Shown: positions 32,106-54,069 of the stretch, piece after piece | How the letters are laid out: every line of letters starts with the position of its first letter | How positions within the stretch are numbered: the first letter of the stretch is position 1 | Assembly (NCBI RefSeq): GCF_001544355.1 | Contig: NZ_BCQI01000001.1 | Coordinates: 1-64,000, forward strand | DNA from: Alicyclobacillus acidiphilus NBRC 100859 | GTDB lineage: Bacteria; Bacillota; Bacilli; Alicyclobacillales; Alicyclobacillaceae | Length of the DNA: 64,000 nucleotides | Direction: 5' to 3' | The notes under the pieces: model-generated | What the model was told of the DNA's origin: nothing | Seen by the model: only the letters and a program-made list of their open reading frames with translations | The model's database searches: none | Translations under genes and position numbers: made by a program

Positions 32106-34967
32106 ATGGGGAGACGACATCGACGAACTGCCGCCGCCAAGCTTCCTAACGCGTTACGCGCCGCCGCAGCTGCAACGGTGGTACTCACCGCCGCAGGCAC
32201 CGTCAACGCGTATGCGGTGCCGGGCTCGGCAAATGCTGCGACCGCGTCAGGCGCGTCCGCAACTGCCGTGAATACCCCACTGCAGCAGATTTGGAGCAAC
32301 ATCGTGGACACCAGCCCCTCCTTGGCCAACGCCACAGTATCCGCGTATGCGTACGATGTCACCACAGGGAAGACGCTGGCGTCCATCCATGGGGACATGC
32401 GGCAGACCCCTGCGTCGGTGACCAAGTTGGTGACATCGGCGGCTGGGTTGGCGGCACTTGGCCCGAATGACGAGTACACGACCAAGGTCGATGTACTTGC
32501 AAAGAGTTCTTCGTCCACGCCTGGCCCCATTTACCTTGTCGGCGGCGGCGATCCGTGGCTTGAAGCCAATGGCGCGTCCGATTTGGAAACGTTGGCGCAA
32601 CAGGTTGCAGCGCAAGTGAAATCTGCCACCCAAGTGGTCGGAGTGAGTTCGCTCTTCACTTCGCCGACCTACGAAACTGGCTGGCCCTTGGGCGACCTGC
32701 CGCAGAACTACGCTGCGGGTGTGAGCGCCTTGATGGCCGAGCGATCGGAAATTCAGGTGAAAGTGACCGGCACGTCGTCTGGAAGCAAACCGACGGTGGA
32801 TCTCTATTTCAACGGCACGGCGGTCGCACCTGAGTACTTTCACGTGGTCAACGACGCAACCACCAACAGCGGACAAGCCTCCACGATCTCGATCACGCGG
32901 CAATTGGGCACGAACAATATCGTTGTCACGGGCGCGATCGCGCCGGGTCACTACACCTCCAACAACTTCCTCTCCGTCGGGAATCCCGCCCTGTTCGCCG
33001 CCACACTGTTCCAGGATGCCTTGAAGAAGGATGGCGTCGCGTTCACGTCCGATCCGACGACCGGCACCTTGCCAAGCAACACGCAAACCATCGCCACGCA
33101 TCAATCGGACACGTTGGCGAACCTGCTCATCACCCAAAACCAGTTCTCCATCAATCAAATGGCGGACAACCTGTACCGGATGCTCGGCGCAAACGCGTCT
33201 GGCGTCGGATCGCCGCAGACGGCCGCAAGCGCATTGTCGGCATTCCTGCACAAGGCGGGGGTCTCGCAGAGCGGGCTGCAGATTGTGGATGGATCAGGGC
33301 TCTCGCCACTCGACGAGATCAGTTCCAGGCAGATGGTGAACCTGCTTTCGTATGCGTCGACACAGCCATGGTTCGACGCGTTCAGAAATTCACTGATGCA
33401 TGTCAACGATCCAAACAATTCCGGTATCCTGGCGGGGCACAACTTCAATCTTCCATCCGGCACCAACGTGTGGGTGAAGACGGGAAACCTTTCCAACCAA
33501 TGGAACTACGTCGGTTATGCGCAGGCGGAAAACGGCGATCTGATTGCGTTCGCCATATTGGACGACGGTGCGCCGACGTCGTTGAATGACGGCGCGGGCT
33601 CTCCATTGGATCAGATGATCGACGACGCGGCGAGCTGGCCGAACGTCCCAACAGCTTCTGCTGACCCGGCAGCCGCGAATTCGGCAACAAACGCGAGCCA
33701 AAGCACGCCGGTTGAGGGCGCAACGCCAACCGTGCCAAGCGCCTTGCCGGCCGAATTGACATCTGACCTGCAGCAGTTGCAAACAGCGGCGAATTCTGGA
33801 GACGTCCTCGGCGTTTCCGTGGTCAACGCGGCGACTGGGCAGTCCGTGTATGCGTTGAATGGAAACAAGCTGATGCGCGCTGGCCTTCTGCCTCGCCTCG
33901 CTGTCGGTGCCGCGGCATTGCAGAGCGGCGCACAGTTTCAAGGTGTCGCCGTGGAAGCCGACGGCACTGTGAGCAACGGCACGTTGAACGGCTCGCTGGT
34001 GATTGACGGACATGGTTCGCCATCCCTGACAGCCGCCGACCTCGCGCAACTCGCAGCGGCCGTAAAACAGGCTGGCATCACGGCGGTCAGCGGATCGCTC
34101 GAATACGTGGATACCACCGCTGGAGCGTACTGGCCCGATGACGCACCCTGGAATGATCAGGGGCAAGTTTGGGCTCCGCCGTCCTCTACACTGTCTTTCA
34201 ACCATGACATGGTCACACTCACCGTACAGAGCAAAGGGCCTGGCCAAACACCGAGTGTCACTGTCACGCCGGCCGACGCGCCGATTCAAGTGGTGAACGA
34301 CCTCACGACGGGTACGCCTGGAGCGAGCGGCGCGGCGACAGCTGGAACGTCGAACGCAGGCATCCAGGCGACGCTGAAAAATGGGACCAACACGTACGTC
34401 TTGACTGGCGCAGTTCGACCAGGCGCACCCGCGACCATCCAGGTGGCCCCGCCAAACGCCGCAGCCGTGGCGGCAACGGCATACAATGACGCATTGAAGC
34501 AGGCTGGGGTGACGGTGAGCGGCGGGATCCAGTCCGTGACGCACGATCCGGGTTCGAACGTCGTCGCGACGATTGCGGCGCCGTCCGCAGCGAGCTTGAT
34601 GCCTTCGCTGCTGAGCCAACCGTCAAGCGAAACCGCCACAGAGCTGTACAACCTCCTCGGTTCGAGCGGTTACGGAAAGGTTGCGGCGATGCTCGGATCC
34701 ACGGATCAGATTGTGGATCCGACGGCGCTTGGCCTCGAAAATTACGTCACGCCGGCAAGCGTAACGGCCATGCTATCGAACGTGTACAACAACTCCGCCG
34801 ACGCGCCGCTCAAGCAGGCTTTAAACAAACTGTGGAAATTCCAGAGTCCGCAGGTTGAAGGCATTGCAGGTTACATCAATGGCTCCGACGGGACCGTATA
34901 CGCAGTGACGGTGATTCAAGCCGAGTTGCCGTGGAACGGCAGCTTTGCTCCAACGATCCCGTCGTAA
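32106..34967 (+). CDS. dacB: D-alanyl-D-alanine carboxypeptidase/endopeptidase (S13), tandem domains, second one degenerate
   Basis: 953 residues, about twice the usual PBP4/DacB length. An Arg-rich signal peptide ends near residue 36 (VNAYA). Domain 1 (about 55-510) has all three serine-acylase motifs: SVTK (Ser104, Lys107), SIN (348-350) and KTG (458-460), with DGSGLSPLDEIS. It should trim peptidoglycan outside the cell. A Pro/Ala/Thr-rich linker (about 520-550) leads to domain 2 (about 555-945), which repeats the fold (VSVVNAATGQSVYALNGNK, GSLVIDGHGSPSLT, VWAPPSSTLSFNHD) but has RAGLLPRL in place of SxxK, QPSSETATEL in place of SxN, and no KTG. Domain 2 is probably a binding or structural pseudo-enzyme. 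Monocistronic with its own terminator. Confidence 0.9.
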   Translation: MGRRHRRTAAAKLPNALRAAAAATVVLTAAGTVNAYAVPGSANAATASGASATAVNTPLQQIWSNIVDTSPSLANATVSAYAYDVTTGKTLASIHGDMRQTPASVTKLVTSAAGLAALGPNDEYTTKVDVLAKSSSSTPGPIYLVGGGDPWLEANGASDLETLAQQVAAQVKSATQVVGVSSLFTSPTYETGWPLGDLPQNYAAGVSALMAERSEIQVKVTGTSSGSKPTVDLYFNGTAVAPEYFHVVNDATTNSGQASTISITRQLGTNNIVVTGAIAPGHYTSNNFLSVGNPALFAATLFQDALKKDGVAFTSDPTTGTLPSNTQTIATHQSDTLANLLITQNQFSINQMADNLYRMLGANASGVGSPQTAASALSAFLHKAGVSQSGLQIVDGSGLSPLDEISSRQMVNLLSYASTQPWFDAFRNSLMHVNDPNNSGILAGHNFNLPSGTNVWVKTGNLSNQWNYVGYAQAENGDLIAFAILDDGAPTSLNDGAGSPLDQMIDDAASWPNVPTASADPAAANSATNASQSTPVEGATPTVPSALPAELTSDLQQLQTAANSGDVLGVSVVNAATGQSVYALNGNKLMRAGLLPRLAVGAAALQSGAQFQGVAVEADGTVSNGTLNGSLVIDGHGSPSLTAADLAQLAAAVKQAGITAVSGSLEYVDTTAGAYWPDDAPWNDQGQVWAPPSSTLSFNHDMVTLTVQSKGPGQTPSVTVTPADAPIQVVNDLTTGTPGASGAATAGTSNAGIQATLKNGTNTYVLTGAVRPGAPATIQVAPPNAAAVAATAYNDALKQAGVTVSGGIQSVTHDPGSNVVATIAAPSAASLMPSLLSQPSSETATELYNLLGSSGYGKVAAMLGSTDQIVDPTALGLENYVTPASVTAMLSNVYNNSADAPLKQALNKLWKFQSPQVEGIAGYINGSDGTVYAVTVIQAELPWNGSFAPTIPS

Positions 34968-34999
34968 ATGGACAGTCTCGAACAAATCCGATGGTCTAG

Positions 35000-35035
35000 G
35001 AGCCCCCATGCTATCGTTCGTGGGGGCTCTTTCCC
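35000..35035 (+). terminator. Terminator of the S13 peptidase gene
   Basis: GAGCCCCCA (35000-35008) pairs with TGGGGGCTC (35021-35029), followed by TTTCCCC. About 32 bp after the stop codon. Confidence 0.7.
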
Positions 35036-35149: not shown

Positions 35150-36361
35150 ATGCGGATCGTCGTTCAAAAATTCAGTGGAAACGCGGTAGCGGTACCCAGT
35201 ACTTGCACATCCGCGATTGAACATATCGAGGCGGCGGCAGCCCAGCAATGCGGGGTGGTGGTCGTGGTCTCAGCCCTGACCGGACGCGCCGCGCTAAGCG
35301 TGACCGAAAGCGGGGCAAGCGCGCTCGAACACGCCGCCGGAATCTCCTCCCGCGAGTTGGATCTCGTCCGGGCCTCGCGCGACACCGTCAGCGCCGTGAC
35401 GCTCGCCTCTTCGCTGCGAAGCCGGAAGCACGACGTGATCGTCCTGAGCGGTCAGCAAGCCGGCATCATTACGGACAACCAACACAGTGACGCTCGTATT
35501 TTGGAAATCGATCCGACGCGGATTCTGGAATCTCTGGCGAAAGGACAGATCGTCGTCGTCATGGGCTGCCAAGGCGTCACCAAGAGCGGCGAGCTCACTC
35601 GGCTGGGGTTTGGTACGAGCGATACGACCGCGGCGCTCATCGGCACGGCCCTGGGCGCGGATTGCGTCGAGATCTTCACGGACGTCGAGGGCATTATGAC
35701 GGCCGATCCTCGCATCGTCCTGAACGCCCGCTGCCGGACAAGAGCGACATATGCGGAGATCTACAACCTTGCCTATCACGGCGCGAACGTCATTCATCCA
35801 CTTTCTGTCAAAATCGCGATGCAGCGAAGTATTCCGATTCGCGTGCGGAGAGTGGAGTCACCGACCGCCGGCACGCTCATCTGCTGCACCGCAGGCGACA
35901 TGGAACGGGTAACTTGGGATTCGCAGTGCATCACCGGCATCACACAGGTGTCGAACATCGCGCAAATTTCGCTGGAAAGGCCGCCCGCCGACAACGTAAA
36001 CGTCCTTTCCCTTCTTCAGCGTCGCGGCGTCGATGTCGACTACATCTCGATGGAACGCGACTGCCTGACCTTCACGATCCAAAACAGCTCCAAGGATGTC
36101 GCGATCGCGGTGCTCGCTGAACACGGATTCGCGCCAACCACCATCTCCGATTGCGCGCGGGTGTCGATGGTAGGAACCGGCATCACCAACGACCCAGGCA
36201 CCATTGCCAGAGTGGTCAGCACACTCGCCAGTCACGGCATCCGCATCCTGCTTTCCGGGAACGCGTACAACGCGATTTGGTGTCTCGTCGAACAGCGCGA
36301 CATGGAACGCGCCGTCCGCGCGCTGCATCAGGAGTTTGAGACTGAACTATGCTCACTCTGA
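35150..36361 (+). CDS. Aspartokinase-like protein (DapG type) with altered active-site motifs
   Basis: 403 residues from ATG 35150 (GAGGGGGAAG upstream). The overall sequence follows Bacillus aspartokinase I: VQKF start, IFTDVEGIMTADPRIV, YAEIYNLAYHGANVIHP, IPIRVR, then two ACT domains (about 260-400; VSMVGTGITNDPGTIARVVS). Several residues normally invariant in aspartate kinases differ: KFGGTS is KFSGNA, the substrate-binding CGET segment is SRDT, and GRGGSD is GFGTSD, losing the Arg. The first Lys and the last Asp are kept. Catalysis is therefore doubtful; a regulatory, ACT-based role or an altered substrate is possible. No lysine riboswitch fits in the 115-bp leader. Monocistronic. Confidence 0.8.
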   Translation: MRIVVQKFSGNAVAVPSTCTSAIEHIEAAAAQQCGVVVVVSALTGRAALSVTESGASALEHAAGISSRELDLVRASRDTVSAVTLASSLRSRKHDVIVLSGQQAGIITDNQHSDARILEIDPTRILESLAKGQIVVVMGCQGVTKSGELTRLGFGTSDTTAALIGTALGADCVEIFTDVEGIMTADPRIVLNARCRTRATYAEIYNLAYHGANVIHPLSVKIAMQRSIPIRVRRVESPTAGTLICCTAGDMERVTWDSQCITGITQVSNIAQISLERPPADNVNVLSLLQRRGVDVDYISMERDCLTFTIQNSSKDVAIAVLAEHGFAPTTISDCARVSMVGTGITNDPGTIARVVSTLASHGIRILLSGNAYNAIWCLVEQRDMERAVRALHQEFETELCSL

Positions 36362-36438: not shown

Positions 36439-37350
36439 CTAGCCTAGTCGCTGCATGCCGATGCTCGATTTCGGATCCAACGCGTCGCGAAGACCGTCGC
36501 CGATGAAGTTGATGGCGACGACGGCGATCGTGATCGAGAAGCCCGGTATCAGAATCATCCAGGGATTCGACGCAATGTAGTTCTGCGCGTCATCCAACAT
36601 ATTCCCCCACGATGGAATCGAAGGAGACAGGCCAAAACCCAGGTAGTCGAGCGACGCCTCGGCCAGCATGCTGCCGCCCATGCTGAAGGCGGTCGACACC
36701 CAAACCGGCGCCATGGCGTTGGGCAGGACGTGCCGCAACAAAATGCCCATGGTCCGACCGCCGCCGATTCGCGCAGCGACGACGTACTCCTGTTCCTTGA
36801 TGCTGAGCACCTGGGAACGGACGATGCGCGCGAGTCCTCCCCACCCGAACAGGCCAAGGTAGAGGACCATCACACCGACCGACGCTTGGCCGCCGAGCAA
36901 GTTCAACACCACCAGCAGCAGAAAGATGGCCGGGAACGACAGCAGGAGATCGACAAACCGCATCATGAGCCGATCCCACACACCCCCCAGGAACCCGGAG
37001 ACAGCTCCGAACACGGTCCCAATCGAGGTGGAGATGATCATGGATCCGAAACCAACCAAAAAGGAAATTCGGCCGCCGTACAGCAACCTCGCCAGGACGT
37101 CCCGGCCGAGATCGTCCGTTCCCAAGGGATGGCGCGGACTCGGCGGCGACATGACGTTGAACAGATCTTGCGCGGCGGGATTCTGATGATCCAAAAACGG
37201 AGCAAACAACGAAGCCAACACCATGATGGTCAACACAATCGTCCCAATCAACGCCATGCGATGTTGAAACAGGCGCCTGAAAAACTGGTACCGATGTCGG
37301 CTCGATAATTGAATGACTGGCACTGCGGCCTCTTCTGCCACTTGCGACAT
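36439..37350 (-). CDS. Peptide ABC transporter permease, OppC/DppC type (second system)
   Basis: 303 residues, six membrane helices. Textbook OppC marks: RHPLGTDDLGRDVLARLLYGGR after the first loop and EAA loop EYVVAARIGGGRTMGILLRH. ATG at 37350 follows AAGGGAG. Last gene of oppA-oppB-oppC on the minus strand; convergent with the aspartokinase-like gene. No ATPase follows. Confidence 0.9.
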   Translation of the reverse strand: MSQVAEEAAVPVIQLSSRHRYQFFRRLFQHRMALIGTIVLTIMVLASLFAPFLDHQNPAAQDLFNVMSPPSPRHPLGTDDLGRDVLARLLYGGRISFLVGFGSMIISTSIGTVFGAVSGFLGGVWDRLMMRFVDLLLSFPAIFLLLVVLNLLGGQASVGVMVLYLGLFGWGGLARIVRSQVLSIKEQEYVVAARIGGGRTMGILLRHVLPNAMAPVWVSTAFSMGGSMLAEASLDYLGFGLSPSIPSWGNMLDDAQNYIASNPWMILIPGFSITIAVVAINFIGDGLRDALDPKSSIGMQRLG

Positions 37351-37435
37351 ACAATCGCTCCCTTCCGCTCAGGTGACATACCGCTGACATACCGCGTTGG
37401 AATTGGCCAACTTTGTCGCCGTCCAGAAAATCGCT

Positions 37436-38389
37436 TCATTCGTACTTGATCCGAGGATCAAACACGCCGTACGCCAGATCGGCCAACAGGTTGCCGACAA
37501 TCAGCAAGATCGCGCCAATGAGCAGCCCAGCCATCTCGACAGGATAATCCCGTTGATTGAGTGAATTTAGGAACAATTGGCCCAATCCCGGCCAGGAGAA
37601 AATCTGTTCGACGATCACGGCGCCTCCAAAGAAACCAGGCAGGTCCATTCCGACAATGGTGATAATCGGCAGCAACGCGTTCTTCAGAGCATGCCGGATA
37701 ATCACCTTCTTCTCGGACAGGCCTTTCGCCCGAGCCGTTCGGATAAAATCCTGATGGATGACGTCCAATATGCCGGCGCGCATGAATCGACTCCAACTCG
37801 CCATACTGCCGAGACCGAGCACAGACGCAGGCAACACCAGGTGCCACAGCAAGTCCCAAAACGTGTGCGGACCGTAAGCGGAATACATGCCGGAGACCGG
37901 AAACCAGTGCAAATCCACGGCGAAGACGGTCTGTAGAATGACGCCAAAGAAGAAGCTGGGCATCGCCCAAGCAAAGAACGAGAATAAGGACATCGCGTGA
38001 TCCTGAAATGAATATTGACGCATCGCCAGATACGCGCCAAGCGGCAGACCCAGTCCAAACGAGAGGATGAACGCCGCAAACATGAGGATCAGCGTATTTG
38101 GCAAACGCTCGCCAATCTCCTGCATCACAGGCGATCCGGTAAAGTAACTGTAGCCCCAGTTGCCATGCAAGAGCGCCCACAGCCATTTGAAATAACGCAC
38201 ATACCACGGCTTATTGAGCCCCATCTGGATGGACAGCACGTGAATTTGTTGTGGCGTGACGTTTGGGTTGTGCAGGTAGACCGCGAGTGGTCCACCCGGC
38301 GTCGCATTCATCAGAAAATAGGTGACGATGCTGATGAGCAGGAGCAGCGGGATGGCCTCTGCAATGCGTCGCACGATGTAGCTGACCAT
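37436..38389 (-). CDS. Peptide ABC transporter permease, OppB/DppB type (second system)
   Basis: 317 residues. N-terminal helix VSYIVRRIAEAIPLLLLISI, SYFTGSPVMQEIGERLPNTL, and EAA loop DFIRTARAKGLSEKKVIIRH are typical. Six membrane helices. The ATG at 38389 is chosen over ATG 38395 because a GGGGG site lies 6 nt before it. Middle gene of the oppA-oppB-oppC run, about 100 bp after the binding-protein gene. Confidence 0.9.
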   Translation of the reverse strand: MVSYIVRRIAEAIPLLLLISIVTYFLMNATPGGPLAVYLHNPNVTPQQIHVLSIQMGLNKPWYVRYFKWLWALLHGNWGYSYFTGSPVMQEIGERLPNTLILMFAAFILSFGLGLPLGAYLAMRQYSFQDHAMSLFSFFAWAMPSFFFGVILQTVFAVDLHWFPVSGMYSAYGPHTFWDLLWHLVLPASVLGLGSMASWSRFMRAGILDVIHQDFIRTARAKGLSEKKVIIRHALKNALLPIITIVGMDLPGFFGGAVIVEQIFSWPGLGQLFLNSLNQRDYPVEMAGLLIGAILLIVGNLLADLAYGVFDPRIKYE

Positions 38390-38497
38390 GTGCATCCCCC
38401 TTTTGCAAAAGAACGTGCGTGGGATACCCGTTGTACCCCACGACACGCCGCGGATCGAAACAATTGCTCAGCGATATTTCAGCCGTTTATTGCATGG

Positions 38498-40102
38498 TTA
38501 TTGCAAACTCCAGTCCCACACCGGCGTGTGGCCAAAGACCGTGTCCGTGAACCCGTGCAGATGCTTGGAGTAGGCAAAGTCCGACTTCGCCCAATAGAGG
38601 AAAATGATTGGTACCGTGTCGTGTTCGAGCTGTTGGATCTTCCAGTACACCTGCCGACGCGCCGCATCCGTGACAAGGGATGTTCCCTCTTCGGTCAACT
38701 TGTCCATTTCCGGATTGCTGTACCGCTCCGCGTTCTCGCCAGCCGAAGTTGCCGAGGTAATGATGTACTTGGAGTTGAAATCGATGGTGTCGTCTGGGAA
38801 GACGCCTTGTCCCCAACTGAACAACAGCGCTTCCATCTTGCCGTCGAACTGCGGTCCGTTTGCGCCGAAGATGAACGAGTAATCCGCCGTCTTCACGGGC
38901 GCGTTGACGCCAATTTTCTCCCATGACGCAGACACGGCTTGGGCAATCAGGATGTTGGTGCTGCTCGTGGAACCGGTCCAGATGGGCACCGTAAATTCTT
39001 TGCCATCCTTGTACAGCCAGCCCCCAGCTCCCTTCTTGAACCCGTCCGCCTTGAGCAATGCGGCCGCCTTCGTCAGATCGTACGGGCGCGGTTTCACGTT
39101 TGGATCGTTCCAGTAACCTCCAGGCACCTGGTCGTCAGCTGCAACGACTCCTTGATTGTGCAGGATCGCCTGGACAATCTGCTGTCTTGGTGTGGCGTAA
39201 TCGAGCGCCTGGCGCACTTTCACGTCCTTGAGAAAGCCTTGTTCGATGGGGGTGATCTGGTTGTAGGTGGCCTGCAGCGGCGTCACGATGTTGTAGTTGG
39301 ACTTCAGCGAACCCAGTTGGGTCAAATCCTCCGGCGGAATGGAGCCCATGGTCAGGTTGCCATCGCGCAATTCATTGAACTGCGTCGTGTCGTCCGGGAT
39401 AATTCGGAAGATAATATCCTGAATGTGAACTTTCGGGCCGTACCAGTACGGATTCGGAACCAGTTCCAACTGCTGATCTGCTGTCCAGCTCTTCAGCATG
39501 TAAGGTCCGCTGCCAACCTCGTGCGTATTGTAGTAGCCATGGTTGATTTGGTCCGGCGTCCATTTGGAGAACACGGACTTGGGTACGATGTACGATAATG
39601 CGACGGTTGACATGAACGGCGCGTACGATTTGCTGAGCGTGAACACAACCGTGTGTGGTCCAGAAGCCGTCACACTCTTCACATAATTCCAACCAGTATC
39701 CGTGGTGATGTGAATCTGCTTGTTGGTGTAATACTTCCATGAATATACGACGTCAGCTGAGGTCAGCGCTTGGCCGTTCGACCACTTCGCCTTCGGGTTC
39801 AAATAGAATGTGTACTTCAGTCCGTTTTTCGAGACGGTCCACCGGGTAGCCAACTCCGGCTGGAATTTGTCTTTGGTGTCGAGATACACGAGCGACGAGT
39901 TCATGTACGATTCCGGTTCGTCGTCGGCCGCGAGCGTGCCCAGTCCAGGCGTGAGCGTATCCGGGTTTTGGTCGAGCGCTTCGACCAGTGGCGTACTCGC
40001 AACTGTACTCGCCGCAGCTTGTTGATTTTCGTTTGTTTCGCATCCAGCGACCAGCAACGACAGCGTTCCGATCGCCAACACAGCAGGTGCGAATTTTTTC
40101 AC
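38498..40102 (-). CDS. Peptide-binding lipoprotein, OppA/DppA family (SBP family 5)
   Basis: 534 residues. GTG at 40102 behind GAGGGGG; signal FAPAVLAIGTLSLLVAGC with lipobox VAGC. Family 5 marks: ALDQNPDTLTPGLGTLAADD, YLDTKDKFQPELATRWTVSK, AKWSNGQALTSADVVYSWKY, KDVKVRQALDYATPRQQIVQ. It binds peptides or, given the RpiR-type regulator encoded divergently, perhaps muropeptides or nickel-like ligands; the ligand cannot be read from sequence. First gene of oppA-oppB-oppC, which lacks ATPases. Confidence 0.9.
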   Translation of the reverse strand: MKKFAPAVLAIGTLSLLVAGCETNENQQAAASTVASTPLVEALDQNPDTLTPGLGTLAADDEPESYMNSSLVYLDTKDKFQPELATRWTVSKNGLKYTFYLNPKAKWSNGQALTSADVVYSWKYYTNKQIHITTDTGWNYVKSVTASGPHTVVFTLSKSYAPFMSTVALSYIVPKSVFSKWTPDQINHGYYNTHEVGSGPYMLKSWTADQQLELVPNPYWYGPKVHIQDIIFRIIPDDTTQFNELRDGNLTMGSIPPEDLTQLGSLKSNYNIVTPLQATYNQITPIEQGFLKDVKVRQALDYATPRQQIVQAILHNQGVVAADDQVPGGYWNDPNVKPRPYDLTKAAALLKADGFKKGAGGWLYKDGKEFTVPIWTGSTSSTNILIAQAVSASWEKIGVNAPVKTADYSFIFGANGPQFDGKMEALLFSWGQGVFPDDTIDFNSKYIITSATSAGENAERYSNPEMDKLTEEGTSLVTDAARRQVYWKIQQLEHDTVPIIFLYWAKSDFAYSKHLHGFTDTVFGHTPVWDWSLQ

Positions 40103-40244
40103 GCATGCATCCCCCTCTTTGGTTCGTATGGAGACATCCCGCAACAACATGCTAATTCAGGAAGGAATCACCACCTGATTTACGTTAATTTTTCTAACAT
40201 AGACAGGTTCCTTGTTGAGAAAACGTCATCAGTATAATAATAAA

Positions 40245-48712: not shown

Positions 48713-50215
48713 TCATGTTCGTCTGCGCCGGTGCGATCGGAACAATTCGGGCACGCCCTCGAGATCCTGACTCGGCCAACGAGCGACGAGATCGTGCAAG
48801 CCATTCTTCCAACGAAACGGGATCAGCGGCCAGAGGTACGGTTTGCCAAACGATTTCGTGAACACCAGCAACAGTCCCCAACTGACGACACTGACTGCAA
48901 AACCAACCCAATTCAACCCTGCGGTCCACAGCATAATCCAGATACGCGCCAACTGGTTCGCCGAAGCGAGTTCGAACGACGAAGTGGCGTGTTGCGCCAG
49001 CATGACAAATCCCATGTAGACAAGCACTTCTGGCTGAAGCAGTTGAATCTGTGTCGCAAACTGGCCAAACAGTAACGCTGCGATGATGCCGATCGACGAG
49101 GCCATGGCCGTCGGTGTGTTGAGCACCGCAAAACGAAGGATGTCGAGCGCGAGTTCGGCAACGAGCAATTCCGCCCAAAGCGGCAGCGGATCGTGACGTG
49201 ACGCAATAAAGAAACTCGCCCAGTGCGGGATATGCGTCGGATGCTGATTGACCACGATAAATGCACCAGGCAAAAAGATGCTCATGAAGACCGCCACGGC
49301 AATCACCCACCGCAAGTATGTCCCAACGAGTGGATACGAATGGTATTCTTGCGGATTCTGAATGTGCTGAAAGAACGTTGTTGGCGCGATAATGACTTCG
49401 GCTGTCGTATCGACCACGATCACCACCTGGCCTTCCAACAGGCACGTTGCGGCGACGTCCGGCCGCTCGGTGTAGCGAGCAATCGGATACGGATTCCATT
49501 TGACCTTGCCCATGAGATCGATAATCTGTTGTTCGCCCATCATCATGCCTTCCGACTTGACGCTCTTGATGAGGTTTCGCATCTTCTCGACCAATTCTTC
49601 ATCAGCAACGTCCTTTAAGTACATCAGGCTGACGTCGGTCTGACTCCTGCCGCCGACTTGAAACAGCTCCACGCGCAGCCGTGGATCCCGCAAACGGCGG
49701 CGAATGAGCGTCGTGTTCATGAGCATTGTCTCGGTAAAGCCATCGTGGTTTCCGCGAACGACACGCTCTGTCATGGGCTGATCGATACTGCGCATCGGAT
49801 ACACACGGGTATCGATCAAAAGCACCTTATCGTATCCGTCGATAAACGTAATCAGCGGTCCGGACAGAATGAAGCGAACCGCATCGCTCATTTTATCGAT
49901 AACTTGGACCTGAACGAAATCGATGTTGGTGTTGAGATAAAACACCAACTCTTCGATGGTGTAGTCCTCGCCCTTCTTCTGCTGTTCAAACGCCTCCACG
50001 TTTTTGTGGAAGCTGTCCAACACGAGGACGACGTTCATCGTTAAAAAGAAACCGTTCGTCACGTAGGACATCATGTTGAGTTTTCCGTACCGGAACGGTT
50101 TGGCCATGATGTCCCAAGTCGTGCCGATCCCGAGGAGATCGTTCACGTAGTTCACGTTGTCCTCGAGCGACCGACTCACTGGCACCGTCTCAATCTTTTC
50201 CATGGATTGGCTCAT
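48713..50215 (-). CDS. SpoVAF-like GerA-family spore germination protein
   Basis: 500 residues. N-terminal soluble GerA domain with IDTRVYPMRSIDQPMTERVV, RGNHDGFTETMLMNTTLIRR and RLRDPRLRVELFQVGGRSQT, very like Bacillus SpoVAF; C-terminal half with about five membrane helices (WVIAVAVFMSIFLPGAFIVV and following). GerA proteins are inner-membrane parts of spore nutrient receptors; SpoVAF belongs to the same fold and accompanies the SpoVA channel. Here it stands at the end of a germination operon, not in a spoVA operon. ATG at 50215 with GGAGGAGAC upstream. Followed by the thrS T-box. Confidence 0.85.
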   Translation of the reverse strand: MSQSMEKIETVPVSRSLEDNVNYVNDLLGIGTTWDIMAKPFRYGKLNMMSYVTNGFFLTMNVVLVLDSFHKNVEAFEQQKKGEDYTIEELVFYLNTNIDFVQVQVIDKMSDAVRFILSGPLITFIDGYDKVLLIDTRVYPMRSIDQPMTERVVRGNHDGFTETMLMNTTLIRRRLRDPRLRVELFQVGGRSQTDVSLMYLKDVADEELVEKMRNLIKSVKSEGMMMGEQQIIDLMGKVKWNPYPIARYTERPDVAATCLLEGQVVIVVDTTAEVIIAPTTFFQHIQNPQEYHSYPLVGTYLRWVIAVAVFMSIFLPGAFIVVNQHPTHIPHWASFFIASRHDPLPLWAELLVAELALDILRFAVLNTPTAMASSIGIIAALLFGQFATQIQLLQPEVLVYMGFVMLAQHATSSFELASANQLARIWIMLWTAGLNWVGFAVSVVSWGLLLVFTKSFGKPYLWPLIPFRWKNGLHDLVARWPSQDLEGVPELFRSHRRRRT

Positions 50216-50327
50216 TGACACGTCTCCTCCATTTTTGTGCATTCCGTATAGACGTCCCCGAACGGCCGCATTTTATGCACATTGCTGGAGTAAGTACGCA
50301 CCTGAAACCATTCGAAAGCAGAGCGAC

Positions 50328-51416
50328 CTATTCACATGTATACTGTATACGCCGAATCAGCATGAGTGCGACAAGGAGCAGAGGCACCCCTAGCAAAAGA
50401 CACCAACTGATAGGTACGAGCACATGATTGTACAACCAAAGTGCGTCGGCACCGTTTCGGACAGCCATCGCCATACCGACGATGATTGCAACCACAAGGA
50501 CCGAAAATCGACGGTAGTCGTCCTCCGGTTGTCCCAAAATACGAGCGATCAGCGTTGCCTGGCACCATATGTGGTTACTCGTAAACAATACTGTGTACGC
50601 GGTAGCGAGGATAATAATAACGATACCGATTCGCTCGATTAAAAATCCCCTTAAATGCAGGAGGCCAAGAGTAAACTGCATGGGAAAGGTAAGGTGTTCC
50701 GGAGCAAACCATCCCAAATTGCTCAATACCGCGAAAAAGGATGTCAACATCGCCACTCCCGCGATCACGACGCTGATGTAACAATACCATTTCGACAATC
50801 TGCTGTTGTAGTAGTACGGATTGAGCATCAAGAAAATATTGAAGCCTAAGTAGAGTGGAAGCAGGTGAAGCACTCCCAGCCAGGTATCTTGCAGGCTGAC
50901 CACCTGAGTTGGTATCCATCGGTATTCTCCACGGATCATGACGGCAATGCAACTCGTGAGGTTCCCGACTAAAGTCATCGGAAACACAATACTCGCGACG
51001 CGACCTAAATTCTCTATCCCGCCCCAAGCCCCTCTCCAAGAAAGCAACACGAATGTCATCAAGAACACAAAGCGTGGAGTCGCCGGAAAATATGCTTTCA
51101 TCATGGACGCGAAAAAATAGCAGCACAAGGCGACAAACAGGAGATAGCACGGTACGTAGACAACCCCAATCATGGTTGCAATCCCTCGTCCGCAAACGCG
51201 GACAACAATATCAAATCCCCCCACGTCGGGGAGACGATTATTGATCCACTGATGCCCCCATGCCATCACCAGACTAGCACCGATAACTCCAAGCATTGCC
51301 CATAGGGCGTCTAAATGGGCGTATTTCACCGCAACGCCAGGAAATATCCAATAGGCCAGAGGAAGGTAACTTACCGAGGCCAGCGAAAGCGTTTGCAAAT
51401 ATGTCATGCGTTGCAC
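50328..51416 (-). CDS. Spore germination permease, GerB type
   Basis: 362 residues, about ten membrane helices, of the GerB/spore-permease branch of the APC superfamily (TLSLASVSYLPLAYWIFPGV, MLNPYYYNSRLSKWYCYISV). B subunits are thought to bind or conduct in nutrient germinant receptors. The GTG start at 51416 overlaps the stop of the gerC-type gene; ATG 51407 is an alternative. Third gene of the gerA-gerC-gerB run. Confidence 0.87.
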   Translation of the reverse strand: MQRMTYLQTLSLASVSYLPLAYWIFPGVAVKYAHLDALWAMLGVIGASLVMAWGHQWINNRLPDVGGFDIVVRVCGRGIATMIGVVYVPCYLLFVALCCYFFASMMKAYFPATPRFVFLMTFVLLSWRGAWGGIENLGRVASIVFPMTLVGNLTSCIAVMIRGEYRWIPTQVVSLQDTWLGVLHLLPLYLGFNIFLMLNPYYYNSRLSKWYCYISVVIAGVAMLTSFFAVLSNLGWFAPEHLTFPMQFTLGLLHLRGFLIERIGIVIIILATAYTVLFTSNHIWCQATLIARILGQPEDDYRRFSVLVVAIIVGMAMAVRNGADALWLYNHVLVPISWCLLLGVPLLLVALMLIRRIQYTCE

Positions 51417-52549
51417 TAGTTGAGCGCTCCCTTGTGTCCAATTTCAGCTTTGACGCGAACATCAATCTGCGCGGACGAAAAGAGAGTCGACCAATGGTTG
51501 GAGATAATTGAGGCGTCCTTTGGGTGAACCACCATATCCCTTAACCCAAAACCGAAAGGATCCACTTTATTCCTTTGGCATGCTCGAATAACTTCGATCG
51601 TGTGTTGCTCCACTGTCGTCTCGACCGCCTTTTCATAAAGCTGCATATCTTGAGGCGATACTTCTATCTCTCCATTGGTGGCGTTCACATCAAGATCACC
51701 TTTGAGAAGAATCTTCAGAACGAGTTGCAAATGCCCGTGGACTTGACGAACGAATCTCTTACTCGTCGATTTGATATGCAATAATTCGAAATCCGAGTCG
51801 TTGTACTCAAATGAAATCGCCATGTTTTTTAATTTGCCCAGGATAATGTTGTAGTAGACCACATCTTGCATCGGCAATTCACAAACGGGCTGAAAGCCCT
51901 CGAATACGACTGCGCCTCCGACATCAAATCCCTCTGGAGACGAGCGCAACATGGCGGTAGTCGGGTTAATACCGGGCTGGGTTGTGTCTCTCCAAAACTC
52001 CCAAGTCCTCCGTCGTACCGTATAACCGGACTGCCGAACCCGACTGAACACATTAACCAAGTCGTCCACTGGTTCGTCAATGCTTGACCCGCTAAGAAAA
52101 CCTGCGGCCGTTTCGGGTGTCATGAAGATGAATGCCAGTTTGTCCGATGACATATTGCCCATGATAGATGCGACAACACGCTCAATCTGTTTATCTTGAA
52201 GATGTTCATTTAGGATAAGCACTTGCAAGCTTGCAAGATAAAATTCCTTGCTGTTTCTCGTCTGGAGTTCGGACAGCGCAGTGGACAACGTCCCGCACGA
52301 AACCGTGAAGTTCTTATAGTGTTTGGCACTTCCGGAACCACTCATGTTGCTTCCGCTTGAGTTTGAGCTTTGTGAAAAAATGGGTACGTGCAGTGTGAAA
52401 ATCACGTGATGTGAGTTATCTGGATCAGGATCCACGGCGATGCCCGTCACCTGTGCTCTGTCGTTGACTCGATGATAGTCCCAGCAACCCGACAGCGGCA
52501 GGCAAAGCAATAGGCAGAGGACGATGCGACGAAACCTCACGACACTCAT
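51416..52549 (-). CDS. Spore germination lipoprotein, Ger(x)C type
   Basis: 377 residues. Lipoprotein signal RIVLCLLLCLPLSGCWDYHR with lipobox LSGC, followed at once by the WDYHRVND box typical of GerAC/GerKC. Ser/Gly-rich insertion near residue 65; C-terminal Ger(x)C domain. It anchors to the spore inner membrane as the third receptor subunit. The ATG overlaps the gerA-type stop by 4 bp. Confidence 0.9.
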   Translation of the reverse strand: MSVVRFRRIVLCLLLCLPLSGCWDYHRVNDRAQVTGIAVDPDPDNSHHVIFTLHVPIFSQSSNSSGSNMSGSGSAKHYKNFTVSCGTLSTALSELQTRNSKEFYLASLQVLILNEHLQDKQIERVVASIMGNMSSDKLAFIFMTPETAAGFLSGSSIDEPVDDLVNVFSRVRQSGYTVRRRTWEFWRDTTQPGINPTTAMLRSSPEGFDVGGAVVFEGFQPVCELPMQDVVYYNIILGKLKNMAISFEYNDSDFELLHIKSTSKRFVRQVHGHLQLVLKILLKGDLDVNATNGEIEVSPQDMQLYEKAVETTVEQHTIEVIRACQRNKVDPFGFGLRDMVVHPKDASIISNHWSTLFSSAQIDVRVKAEIGHKGALN

Positions 52550-54069
52550 CCCTTATCATCAACAGGCTTGTTGTGTTGCGTCCGTTTGTTGAGTAACTTC
52601 AGCGGAAGCCGAACGAAACCATCGACCAAGAAATCCCTTAGATATTCTCCATCCATCGGCGCGAGATATGGCGTCCCGAATGATCTCAAACTCACAACTT
52701 CATGCAGAAACCAAAGCGACACGAGCAATATTCCGTAGAAACCAAATGTGGCAGACGCCAACAGAGCAATCCAACTTCCGATACGCAGTACACTGGTGAA
52801 CTCATAGCTTGGTATTACGAAGAAACTAATGGCGGTCAGCGAAACGACAATGATGAGAATATTGCTCACCAAGCCAGCTTGTACCGTCGCTTCGCCGACG
52901 ACAAGACCTCCAACAATACTGAGCGTTTGTCCCAACTGCCTCGGCATCCTCAAAGTAGCTTCACGCAGAATCTCAACCACGATTTGCATCAAGACAACCT
53001 CTACAAACGCCGAAAATGGAACCCCCTCACGAGACTGCGCAATCTGGTTACCAAGCACCTTTGGCAGCAGTTCTGGATTAAAATCGACGAAAGCGACATA
53101 TAGTGCAGGCAAATAGAGACTCAGGAATAACGCGATCACTCGTAGTCCGCGAATGAGCGTCGCCTCCCATGTGGAGCGCGTGTAATCTTCTTCCGTTTGA
53201 AAAAAGTCCTGGATGGTGGCGGGATACAGGAGCACACACGGATCCCCATCCACGATGAGCACGACTTTGCCTTGTACAACTTCACGCGTGACGGTGTCGA
53301 TTCGCTGCGTCACTCTCGATACGGGAAAAGGATTCCACGGATGCTCTGACAGCATTTGTTCAACTGTCGCCGATCCGTTGATCAAATCTATGTTCACCTG
53401 GAGGATCCTCTGGTCGATGGAACTCACTAAGGAAGGGTTCGCGATGTCCCGCAGATACACCATGGCGACAGTTCTTTCACTTCTTGCACCGAGTCTGTAC
53501 TCCTTTACGGTGAGACTAGGACACGCCAAACTTGCCCGGATAAGACCCAAGTTCGTTTGATAGTCTTCGACAAAGCTAATTTGCGAGCCGCGCGTCGACG
53601 CCTCAATGGTCGGCTGCTCCGGAACCCGATGCTCGACGCTCCGCGCCGGAATGACGATGGCATGGGATACACGTTCAATGAGAATGACGAGATCACCTGT
53701 GTCCAACGGTCTGATTGTGTCGCGCAAGTCCGATGTCAAACACGGATTCGCGCCAGTCAAGACGTGATTGAGAACGTACGACTCGAACGTCATGCGAATG
53801 CGCTTCGGGTAATGATGTTGCAACAGTGACTGAATGGTTTTCTCCACCACATCACTTTTACAAATGCTCACATAGAACAGAAGGACACAGCGCCGTCCCG
53901 CCACTTGAAGGTTTCTTATCACAAAGTCGTCACTTTGACCGAGATGTGACGAGGTGTAGGACAGGGCTTCGTTGATATCTCCGCGATACGGGAGAGAGTC
54001 AGCCTTGGCTGTCGACACCGACGAATGGTGATGAGTGTGAAATCTGCGCCGCGATCGATTGAGGTGCAA
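52546..54069 (-). CDS. Spore germination receptor A subunit, GerA/GerKA type
   Basis: 507 residues. N-terminal soluble domain with the family signature EASTRGSQISFVEDYQTNLG (usual form RGPxxxFxE) and SERTVAMVYLRDIANPSLV; then NPFPVSRVTQRIDTVTREVV and VLIVDGDPCVLLYP; membrane helices from about 300 (LRVIALFLSLYLPALYVAFV). The N-terminal 20 residues are basic and His-rich. TTG at 54069 with AAGG close by; a later GTG is possible. First gene of gerA-gerC-gerB. The 130-bp divergent region to the DUF2935 gene should hold its promoter; I could not pick a sigma-G site. Confidence 0.9.
   Translation of the reverse strand: MHLNRSRRRFHTHHHSSVSTAKADSLPYRGDINEALSYTSSHLGQSDDFVIRNLQVAGRRCVLLFYVSICKSDVVEKTIQSLLQHHYPKRIRMTFESYVLNHVLTGANPCLTSDLRDTIRPLDTGDLVILIERVSHAIVIPARSVEHRVPEQPTIEASTRGSQISFVEDYQTNLGLIRASLACPSLTVKEYRLGARSERTVAMVYLRDIANPSLVSSIDQRILQVNIDLINGSATVEQMLSEHPWNPFPVSRVTQRIDTVTREVVQGKVVLIVDGDPCVLLYPATIQDFFQTEEDYTRSTWEATLIRGLRVIALFLSLYLPALYVAFVDFNPELLPKVLGNQIAQSREGVPFSAFVEVVLMQIVVEILREATLRMPRQLGQTLSIVGGLVVGEATVQAGLVSNILIIVVSLTAISFFVIPSYEFTSVLRIGSWIALLASATFGFYGILLVSLWFLHEVVSLRSFGTPYLAPMDGEYLRDFLVDGFVRLPLKLLNKRTQHNKPVDDKG

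Follow-up and report, generated by a model that had tools for sequence, protein, structure and literature searches.

The open reading frame at 35150..36361 of the window (the whole 64,000-nucleotide stretch of Alicyclobacillus acidiphilus DNA analysed here) encodes what is probably an orphan paralog of the DapG-type aspartokinases, hereafter Q, that no longer acts as an aspartate kinase. When aligned with its relatives and with E. coli LysC, Q appears to have had its aspartate site rewritten, with the phosphotransfer side of the active site largely kept. We tentatively suggest that it may still be a phosphotransferase of the amino-acid-kinase type, one that serves another carboxylate or otherwise anionic acceptor and carries a ‘re-tuned’ effector site in its second ACT domain.

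Gene and genome setting

The features at and around the gene are as follows.

35150..36361, + strand: Q, DapG-type aspartokinase paralog with an apparently rebuilt aspartate site, 403 aa
35134..35144, + strand: candidate ribosome-binding-site-like sequence AGAGGGGGAAG, 5' of the Q ATG, read off the sequence
34998..35031, + strand: strong hairpin 3' of the dacB-like gene, possible terminator (-23.7 kcal/mol, z -3.2)
32106..34967, + strand: PBP4-type D-Ala-D-Ala carboxypeptidase (dacB-like), neighbour 5' of Q, given as context
36439..40150, - strand: peptide-type ABC transporter genes (two permeases and a binding protein), convergent to Q

Q opens with the ATG at 35150 and runs without internal stops to the stop codon that ends at 36361. 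As the strong hairpin lies between the dacB-like gene and Q, the latter is probably transcribed on its own; the T run behind that hairpin is short, and a consensus scan neither lists the hairpin nor finds a promoter for Q. The carboxypeptidase is 953 aa long, and its match to the S13 family is strong in the first half and reported as two stretches, such that the latter half resembles a diverged duplicate when judged by its profile match. None of the transporter genes reaches an NCBIfam equivalog cut-off. Further along, at 48716-54069 of the window, two GerA genes around Spore_permease and GerAC genes make up a spore-germination set, which makes it probable that the host forms endospores.

The genome (3.86 Mb in 165 contigs, 99.96% complete) contains seven AA_kinase matches, three of them of aspartokinase type: Q itself, a DapG (C1:106243-107448, with flanks read as asd and dapA) and a LysC-type enzyme (C12:23817). 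Signatures are intact in both of the others (KFGGTS or KYGGTS, GE, GRGGSD), so the cell should not need Q for the aspartokinase reaction; the normal aspartokinase elsewhere in the genome, whose possible presence the sequence-only reading had raised, is thus there twice over. Its remark that Q stands away from the dap genes also holds, the DapG gene lying ~70 kb off on the same contig. The same genome has two proteins read as PyrH-type, one in a tsf-pyrH-frr-like cluster (L005) and a second, divergent one apart from it (L007; G000:C26:38617-39252).

Relatives and phylogeny

Searches for an ortholog of Q found none in the genus (15 genomes, 1e-60), the family (41 genomes, 1e-60), the order (59 genomes, 1e-96) or a sample of the class (398 genomes, 1e-105); these sets overlap, each counts Q's own genome, and each covers one genome per species for part of the species, so that a missing ortholog is not proof of absence. 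Nor did one appear among 35 genome-contig loci (best 42% identity) or in plasmids, where 160 of 160 records fell below 60% identity. The comparison with relatives that the sequence-only reading proposed thus turned up no sharer of the substitutions, an outcome that reflects a lack of relatives and does not contradict that reading. The closest protein found is of DapG type and comes from another genus (51% identity); the genome's own DapG stands at 46%.

Q sits on a long branch, measured at 1.84 in a first tree (72 of 79 rows, with 7 distant rows left out) and 3.73 in a second (with 30 of 93 rows left out), and as a result it is placed within or near the DapGs of the family without finer resolution. 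Alignment A1 held 74 of 79 rows, 5 near-duplicates being left out. A simple duplication of the genome's DapG was considered and rejected, as a clade of those two alone fails the AU test (p 0.0185); grouping Q with the seven DapG rows of the genus is not rejected (AU p 0.286).

Extra DapG-type copies occur elsewhere in the family: nine genomes (G015, G016, G020, G021, G029, G030, G031, G033 and G061) hold 2-4 copies each at E 1e-60 (L073-L088, L098-L101), and in G029 two lie ~0.7 kb from each other, one on each strand (L085). Several of the long-branch copies keep the catalytic site and have strongly diverged ACT domains. An inactive aspartokinase paralog was not found among the matches listed from the open-access literature, where no paper treated an aspartokinase as a pseudoenzyme and none matched on DapG feedback.

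The aspartate site

The three altered motifs described in the sequence-only reading are all present: KFSGNA (7-12), SRDT (76-79) and GFGTSD (153-158) stand in place of KFGGTS, CGET and GRGGSD. Outside them, the pocket is further changed by F140C, T151R and M/L74R.

35168..35185, + strand: KFSGNA, with K7 kept and G9S, T11N and S12A (30 or more of the 31 core DapGs have each of the G, T and S)
35366..35383, + strand: VRASRD, residues 73-78, where E. coli LysC V115 corresponds to R74, G118 to R77 and E119 to D78
35567..35569, + strand: C140, corresponding to E. coli LysC F184, which contacts aspartate
35600..35623, + strand: RLGFGTSD (TLGRGGSD in DapG), with T151R, R154F (R198) and G156T; S157 and D158 (D202) kept
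35678..35713, + strand: ATP-side motif TDVEGIMTADPR, intact

As described for E. coli LysC, Glu119 and Arg198 form salt bridges to aspartate at its amino and carboxylate groups; Ala40, Thr45, Phe184 and Ser201 also touch it, with Val115 and Thr195 in a second shell (PMC5481828). By alignment, Glu119 becomes D78 in Q, Arg198 F154, Phe184 C140, Gly118 R77, Val115 R74 and Thr195 R151 (R74 and R151 being placed by counting back from aligned neighbours), and the contacts Ala40, Thr45 and Ser201 are unchanged as A42, T52 and S157; the salt-bridge pair and the contacting Phe are therefore all replaced. Lys8 and Asp202 are retained as K7 and D158, which we take to be the catalytic Lys/Asp pair of phosphoryl transfer. 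Lys257, named among the key catalytic-site residues (PMC3195717), is N213 in Q, a position at which K or R is also missing in 5 of 92 homologs.

To speak of ‘lost catalytic signatures’, as the sequence-only reading did, therefore seems too strong: the aspartate-site residues have indeed changed, but K7 and D158 are still there, as is most of the ATP site, and what appears lost is the aspartate site. The wording is also overstated in view of the new motifs, which are similar to ones found in sister kinases of the UMP-, carbamate- and glutamate-kinase types, although these similarities are short and could be coincidence. Thus K-x-S-G-x-A recurs in the two PyrH-type proteins of the same genome (KISGEA, KLSGGA), GGNA is found in E. 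coli YbcF (annotated as a putative carbamate kinase), and FG-x-x-D occurs as RFGDND in a same-genome protein read as ProB; in UMP kinase, the Lys and Ser of the K-x-S loop are described as belonging to the conserved residues of the active site (PMC12404492).

How unusual these changes are can be judged from 52 columns conserved at 95% or more in 78 homologs (leaving out three fragmentary rows from the loci L030 and L063), 12 of which are changed in Q against 0-7 in the other homologs, a comparison with some bias against Q because the columns were defined on non-Q sequences. In 12 extra or long-branch copies from the family, 0-3 of the same columns are changed. Across 92 homologs (the 78 plus 14 added, from related genomes and public contigs), positions 9, 77, 78, 151, 154 and 156 each hold a single residue in all 92, from which Q differs; positions 7, 78, 140, 154 and 158 are Lys, Glu, Phe/Tyr, Arg and Asp in all 92, and K, D, C, F and D in Q. 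Residues kept include K7, G10, S41, T52, G153, G155, S157, D158, D178, T184 and D186, together with T177 and the TADPR motif.

All 12 changed columns fall within residues 1-165, which hold 36 of the columns, and none among the remaining 16 (Fisher p 0.01, for a split chosen after seeing the column list). In Q, measured against 31 core DapGs (separated by hand from the 12 control copies), the aspartate-side lobe is changed at 24 of its 67 conserved columns and the ATP lobe at 8 of 50; for ACT1 and ACT2 the counts are 4 of 10 and 7 of 23. The controls show 1-8 changes in the aspartate-side lobe; in nine of the 12, changes in the ATP lobe (7-17) outnumber these, and the other three (L074, L086 and L087) have few in either lobe. 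Since the aspartate-side concentration is absent from the control copies, a long branch alone does not yield the pattern seen in Q, which, on the sequences compared, is not the work of chance.

Selection and codon usage

In a two-ratio codon model built on 12 of the 79 sequences, omega is 0.12 on the Q branch and 0.027 elsewhere, values that are rough because synonymous sites are saturated. Fixing omega at 1 on the Q branch is worse by 318 log units, which rejects neutrality over the whole branch and shows purifying selection when averaged along it; forcing equal ratios costs 3.5 log units (2 delta lnL = 7.0), the Q-branch value being ~4.5 times the background. The earlier view that the changes are non-random is thus borne out by the count of altered columns, their aspartate-side clustering and the rejection of neutrality. 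An open frame is a weaker guide, as random-substitution trials leave it open in 53% of cases with 25 changes and in 29% with 50, such that a decay begun recently could still pass unseen.

GC3 of Q is 0.73, inside the 0.55-0.74 range of 19 long ORFs of the window; codon usage gives no sign of foreign origin against this background, which was picked by length and makes for a weak test. A codon-fit score (0.142 in the coding frame, 0.151 in one reverse frame) does not separate the frames and carries no weight as evidence.

Fold, ACT domains and family membership

35927..36133, + strand: ACT1 region, residues 260-328, with bounds from the predicted structure and no separate Pfam hit
36134..36358, + strand: ACT2 region, residues 329-403 (Pfam ACT_9, ACT_7)
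36248..36274, + strand: changed ACT2 motif LLSGNAYNA (LQSADSHTT in most core DapGs)

Q matches AA_kinase and ACT profile models, and its AlphaFold2 model (pLDDT 89.6) predicts a full-length aspartokinase fold of AAK plus ACT domains. Confidence is low in residues 41-50 (pLDDT 61) and 51-60 (pLDDT 57), against 86 and 84 in the genome's DapG, whose own weak block is 61-70 (pLDDT 54). Searched with Foldseek, the model finds aspartokinases in all of its best 42 PDB rows; it superposes on 5yei_A with Z 41.6 and an rmsd of 4.0 over 381 residues, and on 2j0w with Z 37.6 and an rmsd of 3.2 over 382 residues. The sequence-only reading took the remainder of the protein to be well conserved, with two intact ACT domains; the predicted ACT fold agrees with this, but both ACT regions have changed conserved columns, as counted above, and within ACT2 the stretch LQSADSHTTIW has become LLSGNAYNAIW. 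As it is the ACT2 motif itself that is altered, the proposed retention for amino-acid sensing is not borne out.

The best NCBIfam match, NF006068, scores 392.4 bits against a cut-off of 474, and the equivalog TIGR00656 scores 297.1 against 402.25; such cut-offs are a weak test, being passed by the genome's DapG and L083 and failed by L084 and L075, paralogs with an intact site. Q does clear the broader, subfamily model TIGR00657, with 259.5 bits where 208.7 are needed, and TIGR02078 (AspKin_pair, the Pyrococcus subunit) gives 72.8 against 242.4. A UMP-kinase-like identity was rejected by profile: TIGR02075 scores Q at 31.4 bits, far under its cut-off of 243.9, and places the genome's DapG at 35.4, L083 at 42.7, L084 at 28.7 and L075 at 39.8.

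Discussion

We propose a tentative model in which a DapG-type aspartokinase would have been duplicated or acquired long ago within this bacterial family and, in its kinase domain, the half that binds aspartate rebuilt under continued selection. Most of the ATP site, Lys7, Asp158 and the ACT fold would have been retained through this rebuilding; new arginines (R74, R77 and R151) may now hold the acceptor in place of Arg154, with the effector site of ACT2 re-tuned. In all of this we infer the ATP binding, catalysis, acceptor, dimerisation and effector of Q. LysC mutants with small residues at Glu119 are described as phosphorylating malate (PMC5481828, PMC5819781), so this pocket can be re-targeted; together with the largely kept ‘chemistry’ half, this leads us to favour a changed acceptor slightly over a pseudo-kinase. 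The sequence-only reading had offered both, and a changed substrate now seems at least as good, given that the Lys, the Asp and most of the ATP site are kept and that sister kinase families have motifs like the new ones. Several points count against re-targeting: those LysC mutants had small residues at Glu119, where Q has Asp; the arginines might obstruct a pocket instead of forming one; the Lys257 position is lost; the pathway context points to no acceptor; and the new residues lack an ortholog showing their conservation.

Only slightly less probably, Q may be a pseudo-enzyme without catalysis, for which nucleotide is a structural ligand and which acts through its ACT domains, by sensing an amino acid and/or by forming mixed dimers that tune DapG. 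The loss of both salt-bridge residues and the contacting Phe would fit, as would Arg at two positions, one Gly and one Thr, from which none of the 92 homologs departs, and an ACT region predicted with mostly high confidence; a precedent is described in N-acetylglutamate synthase, whose AAK domain serves architecture and arginine binding, with synthase activity residing elsewhere (PMC4490483). Such a protein would have no need of the K7, D158 and largely intact ATP site seen in Q, the conserved ACT2 motif is changed, and 46% identity to the genome's DapG makes mixed dimers uncertain. It is unlikely that Q is merely a redundant copy under relaxed selection and heading for loss, with the pocket changes as early decay: the raised omega, the long branch, the ortholog not found in the genus, family, order or class sample, and the ease with which a frame stays open after a recent start all speak for it, but the codon model rejects neutrality along the branch as a whole, GC3 lies inside the range of the 19 long ORFs of the window, and at the most conserved columns the changes gather on one side of the active site instead of being scattered.

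That Q is still an aspartate kinase, of altered affinity or regulation and merely tolerant of its changes, strikes us as improbable. Position 154 need not be decisive, as four mutants at the equivalent Arg of the Corynebacterium pekinense enzyme (equated via CgAK R151 and alignment; R169Y is one of them) are described with raised Vmax and a somewhat raised Km (PMC4691045); E78D preserves the acid, and TIGR00657 is passed. Those mutants, however, are single-residue changes, and Q has the Glu, Phe, Arg, Gly, Thr and Met/Leu positions changed jointly, of which the Glu and Arg are retained in 92 of 92 homologs, longer-branch paralogs included.

The flanking genes offer a weak hint of a link to the cell wall. 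The OppC-like and DacB-like neighbours were each found in one of 15 genus genomes, Q's own (at 1e-80 and 1e-60, respectively), and OppB in three of 41 family genomes at 1e-100 (Q's own, G016 and G061), the other 38 being without a match. All three transporter genes have homologs in G016 and G061 (L116, L117) at ~69-80% identity; in two genomes, both from another genus, that transporter's counterpart is convergent to other genes, those in G016 coding for an SH3-domain NlpC/P60 protein and for a member of the enolase superfamily that is closest to L-Ala-D/L-Glu epimerase, under the model cut-off. Such genes are tied to murein-peptide breakdown in PMC2954226, and the cluster at 36439-40150, with L116 and L117, is patchily distributed and possibly murein-peptide-related. 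As a D-Ala-D-Ala carboxypeptidase and a convergent peptide-type transporter adjoin Q, one might imagine that it arose from DapG as a new amino-acid-kinase activity, or as a sensor of meso-diaminopimelate or murein peptides, in cell-wall peptide metabolism; we regard this as a long shot.

Aspartokinase is a textbook feedback-controlled enzyme with a nearly invariant aspartate site. A paralog such as Q could offer a clean case for the evolution of acceptor choice in the amino-acid-kinase fold, or for a change from enzyme to sensor; our claim is a modest one, made for a single known sequence.

Comparison with known systems

Q is like DapG (NF006068 / TIGR00656) in its length, its AAK and ACT domains, its catalytic Lys/Asp and its ATP motif, with 43-51% identity to the closest DapG copies of the family; it is unlike DapG in the aspartate-binding Glu, Arg and Phe, the flanking Gly/Thr and the ACT2 motif, in lying away from dap genes, and in scoring under the equivalog cut-offs. 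With the UMP kinase PyrH it shares the AAK fold, the K-x-S-G-x-A loop and, by eye, a Phe four residues before the equivalent of D158, but its profile score is far under the cut-off and not above that of ordinary DapGs; to our knowledge, PyrH is without ACT domains. The AAK domain of N-acetylglutamate synthase is a precedent for amino-acid binding combined with an architectural role, and differs from Q in its acetyltransferase fusion and in an arginine site that lies at the end of its AAK domain and is not in ACT domains, as described in PMC4490483. In the engineered LysC malate kinase, the acceptor pocket is altered at the same Glu and V115 positions as in Q, by design and through two or three substitutions to small residues (PMC5481828, PMC5819781), whereas Q has Asp for the Glu and Arg at the V115 position, with Phe184 and Arg198 changed as well. 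If Q is indeed a selected paralog in which the aspartate site above all has been rebuilt, it would be a natural counterpart of that engineered enzyme.
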